Shown: in pieces, positions 7,132 to 31,045 of the stretch | Numbering within the stretch: position 1 is the first letter of the stretch | How the letters are laid out: each line of letters starts with the position of its first letter | NCBI GenBank assembly: GCA_002049795.1 | Contig: MUKC01000021.1 | Coordinates: 1 to 45,718, forward strand | DNA: 45,718 nt | Reading direction: 5' to 3' | DNA from: Desulfobacca sp. 4484_104 | Lineage (GTDB): Bacteria; Desulfobacterota; Desulfobaccia; Desulfobaccales; Desulfobaccaceae | Position numbers and translations under genes: made by a program | The notes under the pieces: generated by a model | Told to the model about the DNA's origin: nothing | Database searches by the model: none | What the model saw: only the letters and a program-made list of their open reading frames with translations

Positions 7132-8247
7132 TTACCTATTAAGGGTCTTTGCTAAGGCAGTGAACAAGTTTTGGCAAGGACCGGCTACTAAGTGCTGTAA
7201 GGTCTCCCAGGCCCGGCCTTGAGCCAAGGCCTGTTTGGCCTGTTCCACGCCCGCCAGCCAGGACCGGGCTTTTCCCAACAGATAGAGCACCCCCGCGGCA
7301 TTGACGCATAATAGATCAGCTACTGCCCCCGCTTCTCTACCGGCCAGCACTGCTAACAGAGCCAGGGCATTGTCGCTTACAGTGCTGCGGCTGGCAATGG
7401 CCTCATACGGATAAGCTGGGACCCCCAAATCAGCGGGGGTCAGGATATATTCGGCCATTTGTCCGTTGCGCCATTCCACCACCTGGGTGGGACCGCAGAC
7501 CGAAACTTCATCCATTCCCTGTTCCGGAGAATGGGCCGCGCTCCGGCCATAGACCGCCAGTATCCCGGTCAGACCGATTTCCCGACCGATTTCCACCACC
7601 TGACGGGCCAAAGACGCGCTATAAGTGCCAATCAGCAGGTGTTTAGTGGAACGACAGGGCATCAGCAAGGGACAGGCGATATTAAACACCGTGGTAAAAC
7701 GCATAACCTTGATCAGCCTCCCCCATCCGGTTTTTAAAAACCTTTCGCCGGGAATATAGCACAGCCGATGCTCTTCCAGGCATTGGGCCGCCAGGGTTAA
7801 AGGGGCTTCCAGATCCAGGCCAAAGGCCTCAAACATATCGGAGGCCCCGGAGACCCCGGTCGCGGCCCGCGAGCCCTTTTTGGCCACATAGGCTCCGGCC
7901 GCCGCGGCAATGATCGCCGCGCCGGTGGAGACGTTGACCGTCTTGAGGAAATCTGAACCGGTTCCAACGATGTCGGCACTGGGTTCCGGAAGTCGAGGGT
8001 CGATGACCTCAACATCGTAGTCCATCTGGGCTTCCCAGGCCCCGGCAATCTCCTCCAACGTCGGAGACTTGGCCAGATGGGCAATCAGAAAGGCCCCTTG
8101 CTGAAGCTCCGGCTGCTCGGAAAGCAGGATCTGGCGATAAAATTCCTTGGCCTGCGATCGGGAGAGATGACGCCCCTGCAGCAGTTCCAAAATGGCGCGG
8201 CCAAACCCTCTTAGGGCCTGTTCTGCAAATCTGGTATTAGCTTCCAT
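7132..8247 (-). CDS. TrpD-like phosphoribosyltransferase, B12-riboswitch operon
   Basis: A paralogue of anthranilate phosphoribosyltransferase (TrpD, glycosyltransferase class IV fold), about 371 aa. Recognisable motifs are GTGSD at 95-99 (TrpD: GTGGD), NVSTGAAI near 105-112, and KKGSRA near 123-128 (TrpD: KHGNR). The changes at these substrate-contacting positions suggest an acceptor other than anthranilate. The frame is open to 8283, but ATG 8247 is preferred: AGGAAAAGGG lies upstream inside the dehydrogenase gene, and this start overlaps that gene's stop by 11 bp, so translation is probably coupled. It is the second gene after the cobalamin riboswitch. No other trp gene is near. By context its acceptor may be a cobamide lower-ligand base or precursor; that is inference only. 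Confidence 0.85.
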   Translation of the reverse strand: MEANTRFAEQALRGFGRAILELLQGRHLSRSQAKEFYRQILLSEQPELQQGAFLIAHLAKSPTLEEIAGAWEAQMDYDVEVIDPRLPEPSADIVGTGSDFLKTVNVSTGAAIIAAAAGAYVAKKGSRAATGVSGASDMFEAFGLDLEAPLTLAAQCLEEHRLCYIPGERFLKTGWGRLIKVMRFTTVFNIACPLLMPCRSTKHLLIGTYSASLARQVVEIGREIGLTGILAVYGRSAAHSPEQGMDEVSVCGPTQVVEWRNGQMAEYILTPADLGVPAYPYEAIASRSTVSDNALALLAVLAGREAGAVADLLCVNAAGVLYLLGKARSWLAGVEQAKQALAQGRAWETLQHLVAGPCQNLFTALAKTLNR

Positions 8248-9316
8248 GAAATAAACCCTTTTCCTCTGCACTACAACAATCAATGGTGATTTTGAGTCCT
8301 TGGCGATTCTGGACCAGGTGCAGGCCGGTTTCCACCTCAGCCAGCGGTAGCCGGTGAGTCAGCAACTTATCCCCTGGAATGCGCCCTTGGGCCAGCAATT
8401 CCAAGGCCAGGGCGTTCTGGCGGGAGGTGCAGCCGTAGGCCCCGACCAGGCTAGCCTCCAGATAATGCAGACGATTTAAGTCCAGCGCCTGGGAAGCCTG
8501 ATCGGGCCGCAGGCCGGAAAACAGACAGAGGCGGCCCCGTTTGGCCAACCCCGCCAGGGCCCACTCCAGGGCCTCGATTGCCCTACAGGCCAGCATAGCG
8601 ACATCGACACCCTGACCGCCTGTAAGTTCCCCGATGGCCGCGACCGGATCCTGATCACCGGCGTCGATCACTTCATCGGCCCAGCCTTGCCGGGCTAGTG
8701 CGATCCGCTCCGGAGCTATCTCTACCAGGATAACCCGCGAGGCCCCCCTGAGGTAGGCCAGTTGGGCGTGCAACAGGCCGATCGGGCCAGCCCCGAAAAT
8801 TGCCACGTGCTCCCCGGGACCTACTACCGCCTGCTCCTGACCGTTGATGCAGCAGGCCAGCGGTTCGGCCAGGGTGGCCACCCGAAAAGAGAGAGCCGCC
8901 GGAATAAGGTTGACCGCGCCCTGGTGCACTCCGGCCGCGGGGACGGCCAGAAATTCCGCCAGACCGCCGTTATGATGAAAGCCCATAATGCGCATTTCCT
9001 GACAGAGGTTGGGAACCCCGCGCAGGCAATAACGGCAACGGCCACAGGGGAGGCCCGGCGCTATCTGCACCCGGTCGCCGATCTGCAAACCCCGCACCCC
9101 GTTGCCAACCTCGACAATGGTTCCGGCCATTTCATGTCCCAAGATCCGGGGCAGGATCAGGTCGCGGTGCCCTTGGTGCCACATCTTGGCGTCGGTGGCG
9201 CACAGGGAGCAGGCGGCCATCTTTATCAACAAGCCCCCTTGAGGACATGCTGGCCGAGGCACCCGACCGAGCTCTAATTTCTTAGGCGCTATTAATAATA
9301 CCGCGTTCATCTCCAT
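8237..9316 (-). CDS. Zinc-dependent alcohol dehydrogenase family protein
   Basis: A medium-chain dehydrogenase/reductase of about 360 aa. Visible features: the catalytic-zinc region CSLCATD and GHEMAG, the structural-zinc four-Cys loop (CGRCRYC then a C eight residues later), and the nucleotide-binding GAGPIGLL. It resembles sorbitol/threonine dehydrogenases and 2-deoxy-scyllo-inosamine dehydrogenase-like enzymes. The frame is open to 9412, but ATG 9316 is best because AGAGGG lies five bases upstream. The upstream extension overlaps the terminator at 9352-9384. First gene of the B12-riboswitch operon. Substrate unknown. Confidence 0.9.
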   Translation of the reverse strand: MEMNAVLLIAPKKLELGRVPRPACPQGGLLIKMAACSLCATDAKMWHQGHRDLILPRILGHEMAGTIVEVGNGVRGLQIGDRVQIAPGLPCGRCRYCLRGVPNLCQEMRIMGFHHNGGLAEFLAVPAAGVHQGAVNLIPAALSFRVATLAEPLACCINGQEQAVVGPGEHVAIFGAGPIGLLHAQLAYLRGASRVILVEIAPERIALARQGWADEVIDAGDQDPVAAIGELTGGQGVDVAMLACRAIEALEWALAGLAKRGRLCLFSGLRPDQASQALDLNRLHYLEASLVGAYGCTSRQNALALELLAQGRIPGDKLLTHRLPLAEVETGLHLVQNRQGLKITIDCCSAEEKGLFHGS

Positions 9317-9351
9317 TGCTGCCCTCTTGGCCGCAGTCAGTTTTTGGCCAT

Positions 9352-9384
9352 AAAAAAATCCCCTGACCCGAGTGAGCCAGGGGA
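9352..9384 (-). terminator. Riboswitch-linked intrinsic terminator
   Basis: Read on the minus strand: TCCCCTG, a 12-nt loop, CAGGGGA, then seven Ts. It lies between the cobalamin aptamer and the dehydrogenase start, the expected place for transcription attenuation in response to B12. Confidence 0.85.
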
Positions 9385-9420
9385 CCCTGTTACCATAAGT
9401 CAATCCCCTCAAGTCAATCT

Positions 9421-9585
9421 GCTCGTCTTCTGGCTCCCGGATCTTTCTCCGCCGGCCCTTCCCACCTGGGTTAAGCGCCCAGGCAGTGGTTTTTGCCGGA
9501 TTCGTCCCCGGTCACAGCGGCGGGACCGCCCCGGATTTTCACCGGGTTCCTTGGCCAACCTCGGGCTGGCCCGCAGACTAACTCT
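9421..9585 (-). promoter_or_regulatory. Cobalamin (B12) riboswitch
   Basis: Minus-strand core features of the cobalamin aptamer appear in order: AAGGAACCCGGTGAAAATCC, then GGCGGTCCCGCCGCTGTGACC (two halves of one region), then CACTGCC near 9486, GGGAAGG near 9455, and the B12 box GAGCCAGAAGAC at the 3' end (9421-9436 region). The match to the known class is strong. With the following terminator it should switch off the dehydrogenase/TrpD-like operon when B12 is plentiful. The 5' limit is approximate. Confidence 0.93.
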
Positions 9586-9642
9586 CGCCTGTCAATAAGT
9601 CTCTTTTTAGTTTATTACTAAACTAGAATTGCGCCGTCAAGT

Positions 9643-11341: not shown

Positions 11342-12838
11342 ATGAACCTCAACAATGTTTTTATTGACATGGAATTTATCCCCCTCTTTTTCCAGGAGAA
11401 ATTATCGCTAATCAACCCCCACGGGATGATCGGCGTGGTCACTTTGTGGTCAAAGATCGAATATGTGCAGCAACGCTTTCGCCAGGCCGGGGTAGATCTC
11501 GATCCGCAGACCTCGCCGATCGCCTTATTTGGCACGCTTTACGGCAACGGCTTGCGGGAGCTACTGCGTAATTTGCTCTATAATCCCCAGATTCAGGTGC
11601 TGCTGATCTGCGGCCGCAATCGCTCCGGGTCGCGGGAAGAGCTGCAAAAATTCTTTGACCAGGGACTAGAATTAGGCGACTCCAAGCTGGTCAGTTATCA
11701 GGCCCTGCCTACGGGGGAAGAAGTCCAGACCTGCCGTATTAGCGGCACCGGGCGCTTGATCGATAGCCTGGTCCGACCGGAACATTTCGCGGCGCTACCC
11801 CAACTCCACTGGCTGGGGGAACCGCAAGAGCCTGCCACCTTGGCGCGCATCGCCCAGTTTTTCGTGACCTGGAAGCCAGGGCCGGCTTTAAACAACCTGC
11901 CCCGACAGGCCATACCCTTGCCCGAGGTGGCGATCAGCCATTTCCCCGGTAACCCGAGGGCCCATACCGTAGTCCGGGATACCCCCCTGGCGGCCTGGAA
12001 AGAGCTATTATATATCATCAGTCGGTTCGGCCAGCCGGTAACCCTGAAAAAAGGTGAACGCATCGAATTATCCAACCTCAAGGTAATCGTCGAGCAACCG
12101 GTCTTCGAACCGGAAGCTACCCTGCAAGCCCATAACTTTGACCCCGAGCAGTTGCGGCATTACCAGCGGGGGATTTTGCAGGGAGAAAAAGCCGCGGATG
12201 AAACCTATAATTATGGCCATCGGCTGCGGCAGTATTTCGGCCTGGACGGGCTTCAGGCCTGCATCGAGCGGCTGCAGGCGGATTCGGAGGATCGCAAGGC
12301 TTATGTGGTGCTCTGGGATAACCGCCGGGACTTAGCCGCATCAGAGGGACACCCCTGTTTGGTCTCCCTGTTTTTCCGGCGTTTTGAGGAAAAATTAACC
12401 TTAACCGCTACCTTTCGGACCCATAACGCCCTGGATGCTTGGCTGATTAATCTCTACGGTTTGATGGCCATCCAACAGTATGTGGCCCAGGGCGCGGGGC
12501 TGCCCCCCGGCGCTATCACCGTCATCAGTCATTCGATCAGCATTGACCGGCGGGAATTGGATCGGGCCCTGGAGGTCATCGGGCCTCGCCCCTTCGAGAT
12601 CCGCACCGATCCCTGCGGCTATTTTCGCATCAGTCTGGACCAGGGTGAGATTGTGGTGGAACACCGCTGGAGTGATGTGACTCTGAAAACCTATCGGAGC
12701 GACAAGGCCCGGCAATTACAGCACTACTTGGCCCGCGACCTGGCCCTCTCGGATCTCAATCACGCCTTGTATCTGGGGCGGCAACTGGCCCGGGCGGAAC
12801 AGTGCCTGGAGGAGGGGGGGGAGTTTATCCAGGAATGA
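11342..12838 (+). CDS. Archaeal-type thymidylate synthase-like protein with N-terminal MtrA-like domain
   Basis: A 498-aa protein. Residues about 25-200 (GVVTLWS, NPQIQVLLICG) resemble the MtrA/DUF4346-type domain seen with methanogen thymidylate synthases. The C-terminal half (about 280-470) is a thymidylate synthase fold. C339 in GHPCLVS is the likely nucleophile. DETYNYGHRLR and THNALDAW, with N370 in LINLYGL, correspond to dUMP/folate-site motifs. The expected reaction is dUMP to dTMP, or a related dUMP modification, with a C1 carrier that may not be ordinary methylene-THF. The start ATG has little Shine-Dalgarno; an ATG at 11369 is possible. The next gene, 45 bp on, may be cotranscribed. 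Confidence 0.85.
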   Translation: MNLNNVFIDMEFIPLFFQEKLSLINPHGMIGVVTLWSKIEYVQQRFRQAGVDLDPQTSPIALFGTLYGNGLRELLRNLLYNPQIQVLLICGRNRSGSREELQKFFDQGLELGDSKLVSYQALPTGEEVQTCRISGTGRLIDSLVRPEHFAALPQLHWLGEPQEPATLARIAQFFVTWKPGPALNNLPRQAIPLPEVAISHFPGNPRAHTVVRDTPLAAWKELLYIISRFGQPVTLKKGERIELSNLKVIVEQPVFEPEATLQAHNFDPEQLRHYQRGILQGEKAADETYNYGHRLRQYFGLDGLQACIERLQADSEDRKAYVVLWDNRRDLAASEGHPCLVSLFFRRFEEKLTLTATFRTHNALDAWLINLYGLMAIQQYVAQGAGLPPGAITVISHSISIDRRELDRALEVIGPRPFEIRTDPCGYFRISLDQGEIVVEHRWSDVTLKTYRSDKARQLQHYLARDLALSDLNHALYLGRQLARAEQCLEEGGEFIQE

Positions 12839-28308: not shown

Positions 28309-29235
28309 ATGGAAAGTTTTTGGCGGCTAGTCGGCTGGCGACCAAGCTTTTTAGTAGTGGTTATGACCATGTTTATGGGGCTGATGCCTTCTTTTCCGGT
28401 CGAAGCCCGGGTTTATACCGACCAGTCGGAGCGCCGGGTGTCAGTGCCGGATAACCCGCAACGACTGGTGGCCCTGGCGCCCAGTATCACCGAGATTATT
28501 TTTGCCCTGGGTCAGGAAGCGCGGCTGCAAGGCGTTACCCAATTCAGTGACTATCCCGCGGCTGCACGTTCTTTGCCCAAAATCGGCTCCTACATTCATC
28601 TGGACCTGGAACGGATAATGGCCCTGCGCCCCGATCTATGCATCGGCATTAAGGACGGCAATCCCAAGTACGCGGTGGACCGCTTGACCGAGTTGGGAAT
28701 ACCGGTCTATGTGGTAGATCCCCGCAATTTAGCCGGGTTAATGCAGTCTATCCGGGAGATCGGTGAGTTGCTGGGGGCCTCGGACCAGGCCCAAAGACTG
28801 GTGGCTGACATGCAGCGTCGCCTGGATCAAATTAAGGCTTTGGTCACTAAGCACCCTGACCGCCCCAAAGTTTTCTTACAGATCGGCATTTCGCCCATTG
28901 TTTCGGCCGGTTCCAATACTTTTCTCGATGAGCTTATTTCTCGGGCCGGGGGTCAGAACCTGGCCGCCGGAGCGGAAGCTTATCCCCGGTTCAGCAAGGA
29001 GCAGGTCCTGGCCCTGCAACCGGAAATTATCATTATTACTTCGATGACCAGAGGCGGGGCTTTTGAACAGATCAAAGCCGAGTGGAGCCAGTGGCCTCAC
29101 CTGCCGGCTGCTCAAAACCAACGTATTTTTGTAGTGGACTCCGATATTTTCGATCGTCCCTCGCCCCGGATGATCAAAGCCCTGGAAGTCTTATTCGGTC
29201 TTATCCACCCCGAACTGCGGAGCCAATTGCCTTGA
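28309..29235 (+). CDS. btuF: Periplasmic cobalamin-binding protein (BtuF-like)
   Basis: A 308-aa ABC substrate-binding protein of the BtuF/FhuD class. Signal peptide with a long hydrophobic region, likely cut after PVEA. The segments RLVALAPSITEIIFALG, GVTQFSDYPAAA and LPKIGSYI are typical of the B12-binding subgroup, but iron-siderophore binding cannot be excluded. First of three overlapping genes with the permease and ATPase. No cobalamin riboswitch was found before it, unlike the dehydrogenase operon. Confidence 0.85.
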   Translation: MESFWRLVGWRPSFLVVVMTMFMGLMPSFPVEARVYTDQSERRVSVPDNPQRLVALAPSITEIIFALGQEARLQGVTQFSDYPAAARSLPKIGSYIHLDLERIMALRPDLCIGIKDGNPKYAVDRLTELGIPVYVVDPRNLAGLMQSIREIGELLGASDQAQRLVADMQRRLDQIKALVTKHPDRPKVFLQIGISPIVSAGSNTFLDELISRAGGQNLAAGAEAYPRFSKEQVLALQPEIIIITSMTRGGAFEQIKAEWSQWPHLPAAQNQRIFVVDSDIFDRPSPRMIKALEVLFGLIHPELRSQLP

Positions 29236-30242
29236 ACCTGCACCAGCCGCCACTCCTCCGGCGTCTCGTGAGCATCTCGGTGCTGCTTACCCTGTTGCTA
29301 CTGGTCAGCGCGGTTCTGGGTCTGGGTCTGGGGTCGGCTCCACCTCAACTGGTCGAAAGTCTGGGGGTGCTGTTTGGTCAGGCTGATCCGCAGTCGATGA
29401 CGGCCACCATCATCTGGCGTCTGCGTCTGCCGCGGGTGCTGCTGGCCGCCCTGGTAGGAGCTACCCTTTCGCTGGGAGGACTGGTATTTCAAGCCCTGCT
29501 GCGCAATCCGCTGGCCGAGCCGTACATCCTGGGAGTGTCGGGCGGCTCTGCGGTCGGGGCCATACTGGGTATCTTGCTGGGTCTGGCCCCCTTTCCAGGC
29601 GTGGCCTTGTTGGCGTTTGTGGGCAGTATGGCTACTCTGCTGTTGGTTCTGATCCTGGCAGCCGGGCGGGCCGCCTCTCAGAAAGGCTCTTTATTATTGG
29701 CCGGGGTCATGGTGAATGCCTTCTGCTCGGCGGTCATTATGTTTTTTATCTCTATTACTCAGGATGCCCGCCTGCACAATATCATTTACTGGCTGATGGG
29801 CGATCTGTCTCAGGCCTCGCCGGATCGCTTGGCATTGCTGTTATACTTGTTGCCTCCCTGTATTGTGCTGATTTTCCTATTGGCCCGGCCCCTGAATCTG
29901 CTGGCCCTGGGGGAGGAAGTGGCTATGTACATGGGCATTAACGTCAAGACCGTGTCCTATATGCTGTTGGTCATCACCTCGCTCATGGTCAGTGCCATTG
30001 TCTGCCAGTCCGGTCTGGTGGGTTTTGTGGGGCTGGTCATCCCGCATTTGCTGCGGCTGCTCTTGGGCCCGGATCATCGGCTGTTAATCCCGGCCTGTGT
30101 GTTGGGCGGCGGCAGCTACCTGGTGTTATGCGATCTCCTGTCCCGGCTCTTACCCTCCCAGGGCGAAATGCCGGTCGGGGTGATTACCGCCATCATCGGC
30201 GCGCCCTTATTTATCCTGCTCTTGCAAAGGGGCCGCGGATGA
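29232..30242 (+). CDS. btuC: FecCD/BtuC-type ABC permease
   Basis: A polytopic permease of about 336 aa with roughly ten membrane segments. Family marks include RLPRVLLAALVGATLSLGG, NPLAEPYILGVSGGSAVGA (both in part) and GLVGFVGLVIPHLLRLLLG. The start is TTG 29232, overlapping the btuF stop as TTGA, with GGAG nine bases upstream. The frame is open earlier, inside btuF, but that extension is not family-like. It forms the membrane channel of the BtuFCD importer. Confidence 0.93.
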   Translation: MNLHQPPLLRRLVSISVLLTLLLLVSAVLGLGLGSAPPQLVESLGVLFGQADPQSMTATIIWRLRLPRVLLAALVGATLSLGGLVFQALLRNPLAEPYILGVSGGSAVGAILGILLGLAPFPGVALLAFVGSMATLLLVLILAAGRAASQKGSLLLAGVMVNAFCSAVIMFFISITQDARLHNIIYWLMGDLSQASPDRLALLLYLLPPCIVLIFLLARPLNLLALGEEVAMYMGINVKTVSYMLLVITSLMVSAIVCQSGLVGFVGLVIPHLLRLLLGPDHRLLIPACVLGGGSYLVLCDLLSRLLPSQGEMPVGVITAIIGAPLFILLLQRGRG

Positions 30243-31045
30243 TTCCGGCCGTCAGAGTCGAAAATCTTGGTGTATCATATGGCAAGCGTGCCATTCTCCA
30301 TAATCTATCTTTCCAGATCCCGAACGGCAGTTTTTTTATCATTATCGGCCCCAACAGCTCCGGAAAAACCACGCTGTTGAAGACCATGGCCGGGGTGGTT
30401 AAACCCCAGCAGGGAGTGGTCGAAATCTTGGGGAAACCTCTGGCCGATTATGCCAAGAAGACCCTGGCCCAGAAAATCGCCGTGGTCCCCCAATATACCC
30501 CTACGGACGTGCCTTTTAAGGTCCTGGAAGTCGTCCTCATGGGGCGCTCCCCCCACCTGAGTCTGGCCGGTCTGGAGCAGAAACGCGATCTGGAAATCGC
30601 CGCGGCAGCCATGGCAGTGACCCGGGTCGACCACCTGGCGGACCGGCGACTGGATCAACTGAGCGGCGGGGAACTGCAGCGAGTGGTAATTGCCCGGGCC
30701 TTGTGCCAGCAGCCGCGGCTGATCATGTTGGATGAACCTACCGCCTCGCTGGACCTGGCCCATCAGGTGAATATCATGGACCTCCTGGAAGGCCTGCGGG
30801 AAGAACGGGGCCTGACGGTGATTATGATCTCGCACGATGTCAATCTGGCCGCCATGTATGGCGATCAACTACTGCTGCTGAAGGAGGGCCGGATCGTCAG
30901 CCTGGGCACCCCCCGCCAGGTACTAACTTATGCGGAGTTGGAACAGGCCTACGATTGCATGCTTCTGGTAGATGACAACCCCTTGCGGGATGTACCCCGC
31001 GTGACGCTGGTGCCCAAGAAGTTCCGGCACCAGTTAGACTGCTGA
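30239..31045 (+). CDS. btuD: BtuD-type ABC ATPase
   Basis: A 268-aa ATPase subunit. Walker A GPNSSGKTT, Q-loop VVPQYTP, signature LSGGELQR, Walker B LIMLDEPTASLD and switch His in MISHDVN are all present. ATG 30239 overlaps the permease stop as ATGA. It powers uptake of corrinoid or a siderophore. End of the btuFCD operon; a minus-strand gene follows 30 bp later. Confidence 0.93.
   Translation: MIPAVRVENLGVSYGKRAILHNLSFQIPNGSFFIIIGPNSSGKTTLLKTMAGVVKPQQGVVEILGKPLADYAKKTLAQKIAVVPQYTPTDVPFKVLEVVLMGRSPHLSLAGLEQKRDLEIAAAAMAVTRVDHLADRRLDQLSGGELQRVVIARALCQQPRLIMLDEPTASLDLAHQVNIMDLLEGLREERGLTVIMISHDVNLAAMYGDQLLLLKEGRIVSLGTPRQVLTYAELEQAYDCMLLVDDNPLRDVPRVTLVPKKFRHQLDC

Follow-up and report, generated by a model that had tools for sequence, protein, structure and literature searches.

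A B12-regulated dehydrogenase and TrpD-like protein are candidate partners of CobT in supplying the cobamide lower ligand

Why would a cobalamin riboswitch govern genes for a zinc-dependent dehydrogenase and a paralogue of TrpD, the anthranilate phosphoribosyltransferase? Such an arrangement lies on the minus strand of contig MUKC01000021.1 of Desulfobacca sp. 4484_104, which was analyzed over its full 45,718 nucleotides (the window). On balance, we consider it probable that the two genes form a B12-repressed module that supplies or activates the lower ligand of cobamides alongside CobT. Our best reading of their order of action is that they would work immediately before CobT and would not replace it.

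The switch and the gene pair

The sole Rfam match across the whole window (cmscan) was the cobalamin riboswitch aptamer, RF00174, at 9403-9593 on the minus strand. The match covers the full model (positions 1-189 of 189) and scores 89.0 bits against a gathering threshold of 31.5 (E 8.3e-21). A first-pass annotation of the sequence had called a cobalamin aptamer and its terminator on this strand and had proposed a run of the Rfam Cobalamin model; the element is indeed there, but the annotated interval ended at 9585 and the aptamer reaches 9593. The aptamer is followed at approximately 9352-9388 (minus strand) by an intrinsic terminator, which consists of a long hairpin and U7. A simple terminator scan missed this hairpin, probably owing to its loop and stem limits, and it was revealed by the sequence and the minimum free energy fold. 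The stretch containing aptamer and terminator folded better than 200 of 200 shuffled sequences (z -3.6).

A 12-nt inverted repeat (I1, 83% complementary) connects the 3' strand of the aptamer (GAGCCAGAAGAC, 9425-9436, minus strand) with the 5' arm of the terminator (9374-9385, minus strand). This complement looks like an anti-terminator, with a pairing that would be mutually exclusive with the aptamer and terminator folds. Aptamer, terminator, and competing pairing together have the layout of a predicted transcriptional off-switch. When cobamide is plentiful, the aptamer would fold and the terminator would be freed, turning both genes off; when cobamide is scarce, the 3' strand of the aptamer would pair with the 5' arm of the terminator and transcription would proceed. 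The aptamer-terminator-gene layout is common to the orthologous loci L040 and L041, and the terminator layout was likewise found in L072, L074, L080, L081, L114, and L115.

The gene nearest the switch (8237-9316, minus strand) encodes a 359-aa zinc-dependent medium-chain dehydrogenase (Pfam ADH_N, 2.6e-27; ADH_zinc_N, 5.1e-19). The next gene (7132-8247, minus strand) overlaps it by 11 nt and encodes a 371-aa TrpD-like phosphoribosyltransferase (Pfam Glycos_trans_3N and Glycos_transf_3). The riboswitch is upstream of both, in the order given by the first-pass annotation.

The TrpD-like protein scores 241 bits with the NCBIfam trpD model, above its cut-off of 199, so automatic pipelines would call the gene trpD. 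Its fold is that of TrpD as well: the top PDB matches of an AlphaFold model (pLDDT 89.4) were all TrpD structures, the nearest being 1kgz (TM-score 0.90 by target length), and the GTGxD phosphoribosyl pyrophosphate (PRPP) motif and the metal-binding DE motif are shared. Judged by its sequence, however, the protein is not the canonical anthranilate enzyme, and a canonical TrpD is also encoded in the host genome (contig C116). We built a family profile from 17 members and ran it across a sample of 395 Desulfobacterota genomes; the phylum, together with a further sample of one of its classes, is the scope of the comparisons that follow. Members scored 475-561 bits and canonical TrpDs 297 bits or less, excepting one member split by contig ends. 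A 100/100 branch of the tree divides 19 family members from 14 canonical TrpDs.

The residues that changed are informative about the acceptor. The PRPP site of TrpD is formed by the GTGGD loop, a Ser, and a DE motif, and the carboxylate of anthranilate is bound by an Asn (N138 in Mycobacterium tuberculosis) and an Arg (R193 in M. tuberculosis, R164 in S. solfataricus) (PMC9835598; PMC5537072). The PRPP and metal residues (GTGxD, NxS, and DE) are kept in 19/19 members, with a change in the fourth residue of GTGGD, but the equivalent of N138 is A or S and that of R193 is I or L (M. tuberculosis numbering) in all 19. The Asn, the Arg, and the PRPP and metal residues are intact in 14/14 canonical TrpDs. 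A new invariant Arg, R177, stands two residues before the lost R193 position in the members. Both altered motifs reported for the window protein in the first-pass annotation, KKGSR for KHGNR and GTGSD for GTGGD, are correct. Man-made changes of the same kind exist in the PDB, which holds the M. tuberculosis TrpD variants N138A and R193L with PRPP (4x58, 4x5b). A PRPP and metal site that is kept, with a carboxylate site that is lost, points to an acceptor other than anthranilate.

Residues, tree, gene context, and a second, canonical TrpD in the genome thus all led us to reject an identity as the anthranilate enzyme. The homologues lie outside the canonical TrpD clade, in cobamide and riboswitch neighborhoods, and do not cluster with trp genes; neither this outcome nor a missing cobalamin hit, which the first-pass annotation had named as refuting its proposal, was seen. 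The DNA-binding protein TrpD2/YbiB was also rejected, as the PRPP motif is retained and the YbiB model gave 31 of 185 bits.

The dehydrogenase carries the catalytic Cys/His/Glu positions, the structural Cys4, and the Rossmann glycines. Its nearest named families, L-threonine 3-dehydrogenase (tdh) and the IolM-type polyol dehydrogenases, share the zinc medium-chain architecture. However, the window protein falls below every NCBIfam equivalog cut-off (tdh, 175 of 458 bits; IolM, 198 of 450 bits), and its family has motifs of its own, including G(H/Q)RDL..P and N..HY. At this tdh score we rejected L-threonine 3-dehydrogenase as its identity. Three dehydrogenases of the pair (L072:5696-6781, L074:9188-10162, and L078:8748-9752, all minus strand) have GEE for GHE, a Glu replacing the His of the catalytic zinc, and may have altered zinc binding or chemistry.

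Relatives of the pair and their neighborhoods

The family was carried by 20 of the 395 genomes, and three more carriers from the one-class sample brought the number to 23. In every evaluable carrier the dehydrogenase gene adjoins the TrpD-like gene; the locus of G053 is cut by a contig end. A tblastn scan of close relatives found only one near genome (a Desulfobacca metagenome-assembled genome) and a canonical TrpD, and plasmid searches gave no locus recognized as a member of the pair.

The homologues lie with CobT, CobS, CbiZ, a cbi operon, or btuBFCD, often behind cobalamin riboswitches, which bears out the check on homologues that the first-pass annotation had proposed. The riboswitch is followed by the dehydrogenase, the TrpD-like gene, and CobT in L072; CobS is added in L080, and CobS, CobD, and CbiB in L081 and, with the same layout, L114. 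In L076 and L077 the dehydrogenase is fused in frame to CobT (437 and 413 bits for the CobT half), with the TrpD-like gene alongside. CobT is thus the next gene in four loci and fused to the dehydrogenase in two, and these six CobT-linked loci argue that the pair acts with CobT. The pair is followed by CbiZ, BtuB, and BtuFCD in L156, an order repeated in L157 and L078, and it sits within a cbi operon in L158. Riboswitch and pair stand by themselves in the window, L040, L041, L074, L075 (order reversed), and L115, and neither a riboswitch nor a cob neighbor accompanies the pair in L066-L070. L071 and L073 are truncated upstream, L073 by the end of its contig.

Of the 18 carriers in the first sample that could be evaluated, 12 had a riboswitch directly upstream of the pair (13 of 21 overall); none of 18 canonical trpD loci had one (Fisher p 3e-5, with 17 controls used). 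CobT (TIGR03160) was found in all 20 carriers tested and in 253 of 375 non-carriers (p 5e-4). The carriers are related to one another, so these p-values are optimistic.

The window pair belongs to a subfamily that we call A, and all CobT links belong to subfamily B. The two subfamilies have both genes in common and share a 100/100 stem, and would by inference have the same function. Within subfamily A, the riboswitch is present in 3/3 Desulfobaccaceae carriers.

Some loci had further neighbors. In L067, L068, and L070 (subfamily A, family f91) the pair follows PTS enzyme I-like and SmpB-like genes and has no riboswitch, and an HPr-like gene also precedes it in L068 and L070. The most divergent member of subfamily B (L073:4026-6239, minus strand, G053) lies upstream of a molybdopterin oxidoreductase-like gene. 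In G023, a divergent gene for canonical nicotinate phosphoribosyltransferase (L040:5653-7047, minus strand) adjoins the riboswitch, and a ThiC gene (L040:3532-4803, plus strand) lies a few kb further; neither arrangement was seen beside the window pair.

A proposed step before CobT and its alternatives

In the proposed function, the TrpD-like enzyme would transfer phosphoribose from PRPP to an aromatic amine or nitrogen base other than anthranilate, and the zinc dehydrogenase would oxidize or reduce the product with NAD(H). To judge from the operons and the dehydrogenase-CobT fusion, the base would then pass to CobT and be activated with nicotinate mononucleotide (NaMN) for CobS. The first-pass annotation had suggested handling of an unusual lower ligand in place of CobT. 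Its general direction is supported by the riboswitch, the residues, and the cob neighbors, whereas the substitution for CobT is contradicted by the presence of CobT in 20/20 carriers tested and its position as next gene or fusion partner in six loci. CobT shares phosphoribosyl chemistry with the TrpD-like protein and is the genetic partner of the pair, but it is of a different family and coexists with the TrpD-like protein in every tested carrier. The CbiZ neighbors fit remodeling, in which the cell would strip an imported cobamide and rebuild it with a base of its own.

How the base might arise can be sketched only tentatively. By analogy with the Trp pathway, the pair could possibly help to build a bza-independent, oxygen-independent base with phosphoribose carbon entering the heterocycle. 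In that pathway, the phosphoribose added by TrpD later yields indole ring carbons, a precedent for making a heterocycle from a phosphoribosyl arylamine. The fullest version, which we regard as speculative, would be a new anaerobic bza-independent route in which the TrpD-like enzyme adds phosphoribose to an aromatic amine and the dehydrogenase completes the heterocycle, drawing on ribose carbon, before the product goes straight to CobT, in some cases inside a single fusion protein.

The comparison with genes that are known to make the base is mixed. The bza pathway (BzaF/BzaAB) resembles the pair in lying beside CobT in relatives (the T. lovleyi plasmid and G384) and in offering an oxygen-free supply of the lower-ligand base, but its enzymes are radical S-adenosylmethionine ThiC paralogues that act on aminoimidazole ribotide and have no sequence relation to the pair. 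Neither BzaF nor BzaAB was found in 17 of the 23 carriers; BzaF occurs in G113, G184, G353, and G412, and BzaAB in G313 and G384 (beside CobT in the latter). None of the 20 carriers tested for BluB had it over the cut-off, and the only scores were low ones typical of related oxidoreductases. BzaF was present in 3 of 20 carriers against 78 of 375 non-carriers. In genus g88 the two alternate: three species carry the pair and lack BzaF, another lacks the pair and has BzaF next to CobT, and a further one lacks both. The alternation within this genus is suggestive of a replacement of BzaF by the pair, but across the phylum it did not reach significance (p 0.20 among CobT genomes). A base-making enzyme joined to CobT has been described in Propionibacterium freudenreichii, where the BluB-CobT2 fusion links base synthesis to activation (PMC4657239). 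The fusions found here similarly join a redox enzyme to CobT, but the partner is a zinc dehydrogenase, a TrpD-like gene lies alongside, and the hosts are anaerobes without BluB over the cut-off.

Several observations weigh against lower-ligand supply by the pair. No cob gene adjoins the pair in the window itself, so that linkage to CobT is absent there and the link to cobamides comes from the riboswitch and the homologues. Outside Desulfobaccaceae, subfamily A has neither riboswitch nor cob neighbors and may have drifted in function. Both CobT fusions fall in the same clade and could go back to one event. Genes of the bza pathway also occur in 6 of the 23 carriers, overall BzaF and the pair do not exclude each other to a significant degree, and we know of no route from a phosphoribosyl adduct to a free base.

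Other readings give the phosphoribose a different destination. The kept PRPP site, changed acceptor site, and cob gene neighborhood would also suit a TrpD-like enzyme that itself joins phosphoribose to an unusual nucleotide-loop base, parallel to or instead of CobT. This is unlikely, as 20/20 tested carriers have CobT, which in six loci is a neighbor or a fusion partner, and the dehydrogenase would be left unexplained. The stereochemistry also disagrees: cobamides carry an alpha linkage, and inversion from alpha-PRPP should yield a beta-nucleotide. Beta-NaMN from alpha-PRPP is what would be needed if the TrpD-like enzyme remade NaMN from the nicotinate released by CobT, serving the donor and not the base. 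The CobT linkage and the divergent nicotinate phosphoribosyltransferase gene beside the riboswitch of G023 speak for this recycling, but that gene also means that a canonical enzyme is next door. PF04095 is present in 11 or 12 of 20 carriers and approximately 9 of 20 comparison genomes, and we rejected a replacement of nicotinate phosphoribosyltransferase by the pair since this distribution shows no pattern. With the carboxylate-binding Arg and Asn lost, though nicotinate also has a carboxylate, and no role for the dehydrogenase, recycling of NaMN seems improbable.

The pair might instead serve another cobamide step, either synthesis of the aminopropanol linker, given that L-threonine 3-dehydrogenase is among the nearest named families of the dehydrogenase, or corrin synthesis, given the pair within the cbi operon of L158. 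We find this quite unlikely: the threonine dehydrogenase score is 175 of 458 bits, the threonine-phosphate decarboxylase CobD is already in the operon of L081, the fusion partner is CobT, and the neighbor of the pair in L156 is CbiZ, which removes the lower-ligand loop. Riboswitches of the off type also govern metE and nrd (PMC8620254), so B12 repression would be expected if the pair carried out the reaction of a B12 enzyme without B12, the alternative offered by the first-pass annotation. It fits poorly with homologues that sit in operons for cobamide synthesis, uptake, and remodeling and are fused to CobT. As we know of no B12 enzyme of matching chemistry, we hold this replacement to be highly improbable. 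We think the same of a role for subfamily A that is unrelated to cobamides, with the riboswitch merely borrowed in Desulfobaccaceae. Five evaluable loci outside that family lack the riboswitch, and at least three of these follow the PTS enzyme I-like and SmpB-like genes, but the riboswitch accompanies all three Desulfobaccaceae carriers, and dehydrogenase and transferase remain paired and recognizably of the same families in A and B.

A module for lower-ligand supply alongside CobT would bear on the prediction of cobamides. In a survey of approximately 11,000 bacterial species, 42% of predicted cobamide producers had no assignable lower ligand, as they lacked all known ligand genes (PMC6461909). 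A concrete candidate under B12 control is offered by the pair, most of whose host genomes have CobT and no known base-making genes; it has stayed hidden since annotation pipelines would label its key gene trpD. The pair would serve as an additional marker when the cobamide of a bacterium is predicted, and its two enzymes can be assayed. The pair was not described in the open-licence papers found on TrpD or alcohol dehydrogenase with CobT, cobamide, or cobalamin riboswitch; a Chlorobium paper names trpD and a dehydrogenase, unlinked, in low-coverage regions where cobalamin genes are found as well (PMC8620254). B12-repressed cobamide genes are known, and the two enzyme families are, as far as we could find, new to the pathway. 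In some anaerobes, the pair probably belongs to the machinery that makes or selects the lower base of B12, as a component not described so far.

Other riboswitches and genes of the host

The window also contains btuFCD-like genes at approximately 28309-31045 (plus strand; Peripla_BP_2, FecCD, and ABC_tran). They were rightly said in the first-pass annotation to lack a riboswitch, with 9403-9593 being the only riboswitch match in the window. A protein encoded at 11342-12838 (plus strand) combines a PterinBD-DUF4346 domain with a weak thymidylate synthase-like domain.

Five further cobalamin riboswitches were found in the host genome (2.65 Mb). Three of them precede a TonB-dependent receptor (L044), an ExbB/ExbD/TonB set (L045), and cbi genes (L046), identities judged by the look of the downstream sequence and not by family models. 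The strongest cobalamin riboswitch of the genome (122 bits; L043:514-697, plus strand, G000:C139) is followed by more than 1 kb without an obvious same-strand gene, and the next plus-strand frame resembles an HU-type DNA-binding protein. Another (91 bits; L047:2084-2271, plus strand, G000:C136) lies between acsB-like and acsC-like genes. The acsC-like frame directly after this aptamer is without the usual N-terminal stretch, and the arrangement could come from a deletion or a join in the assembly, or the target could be an unusual one.

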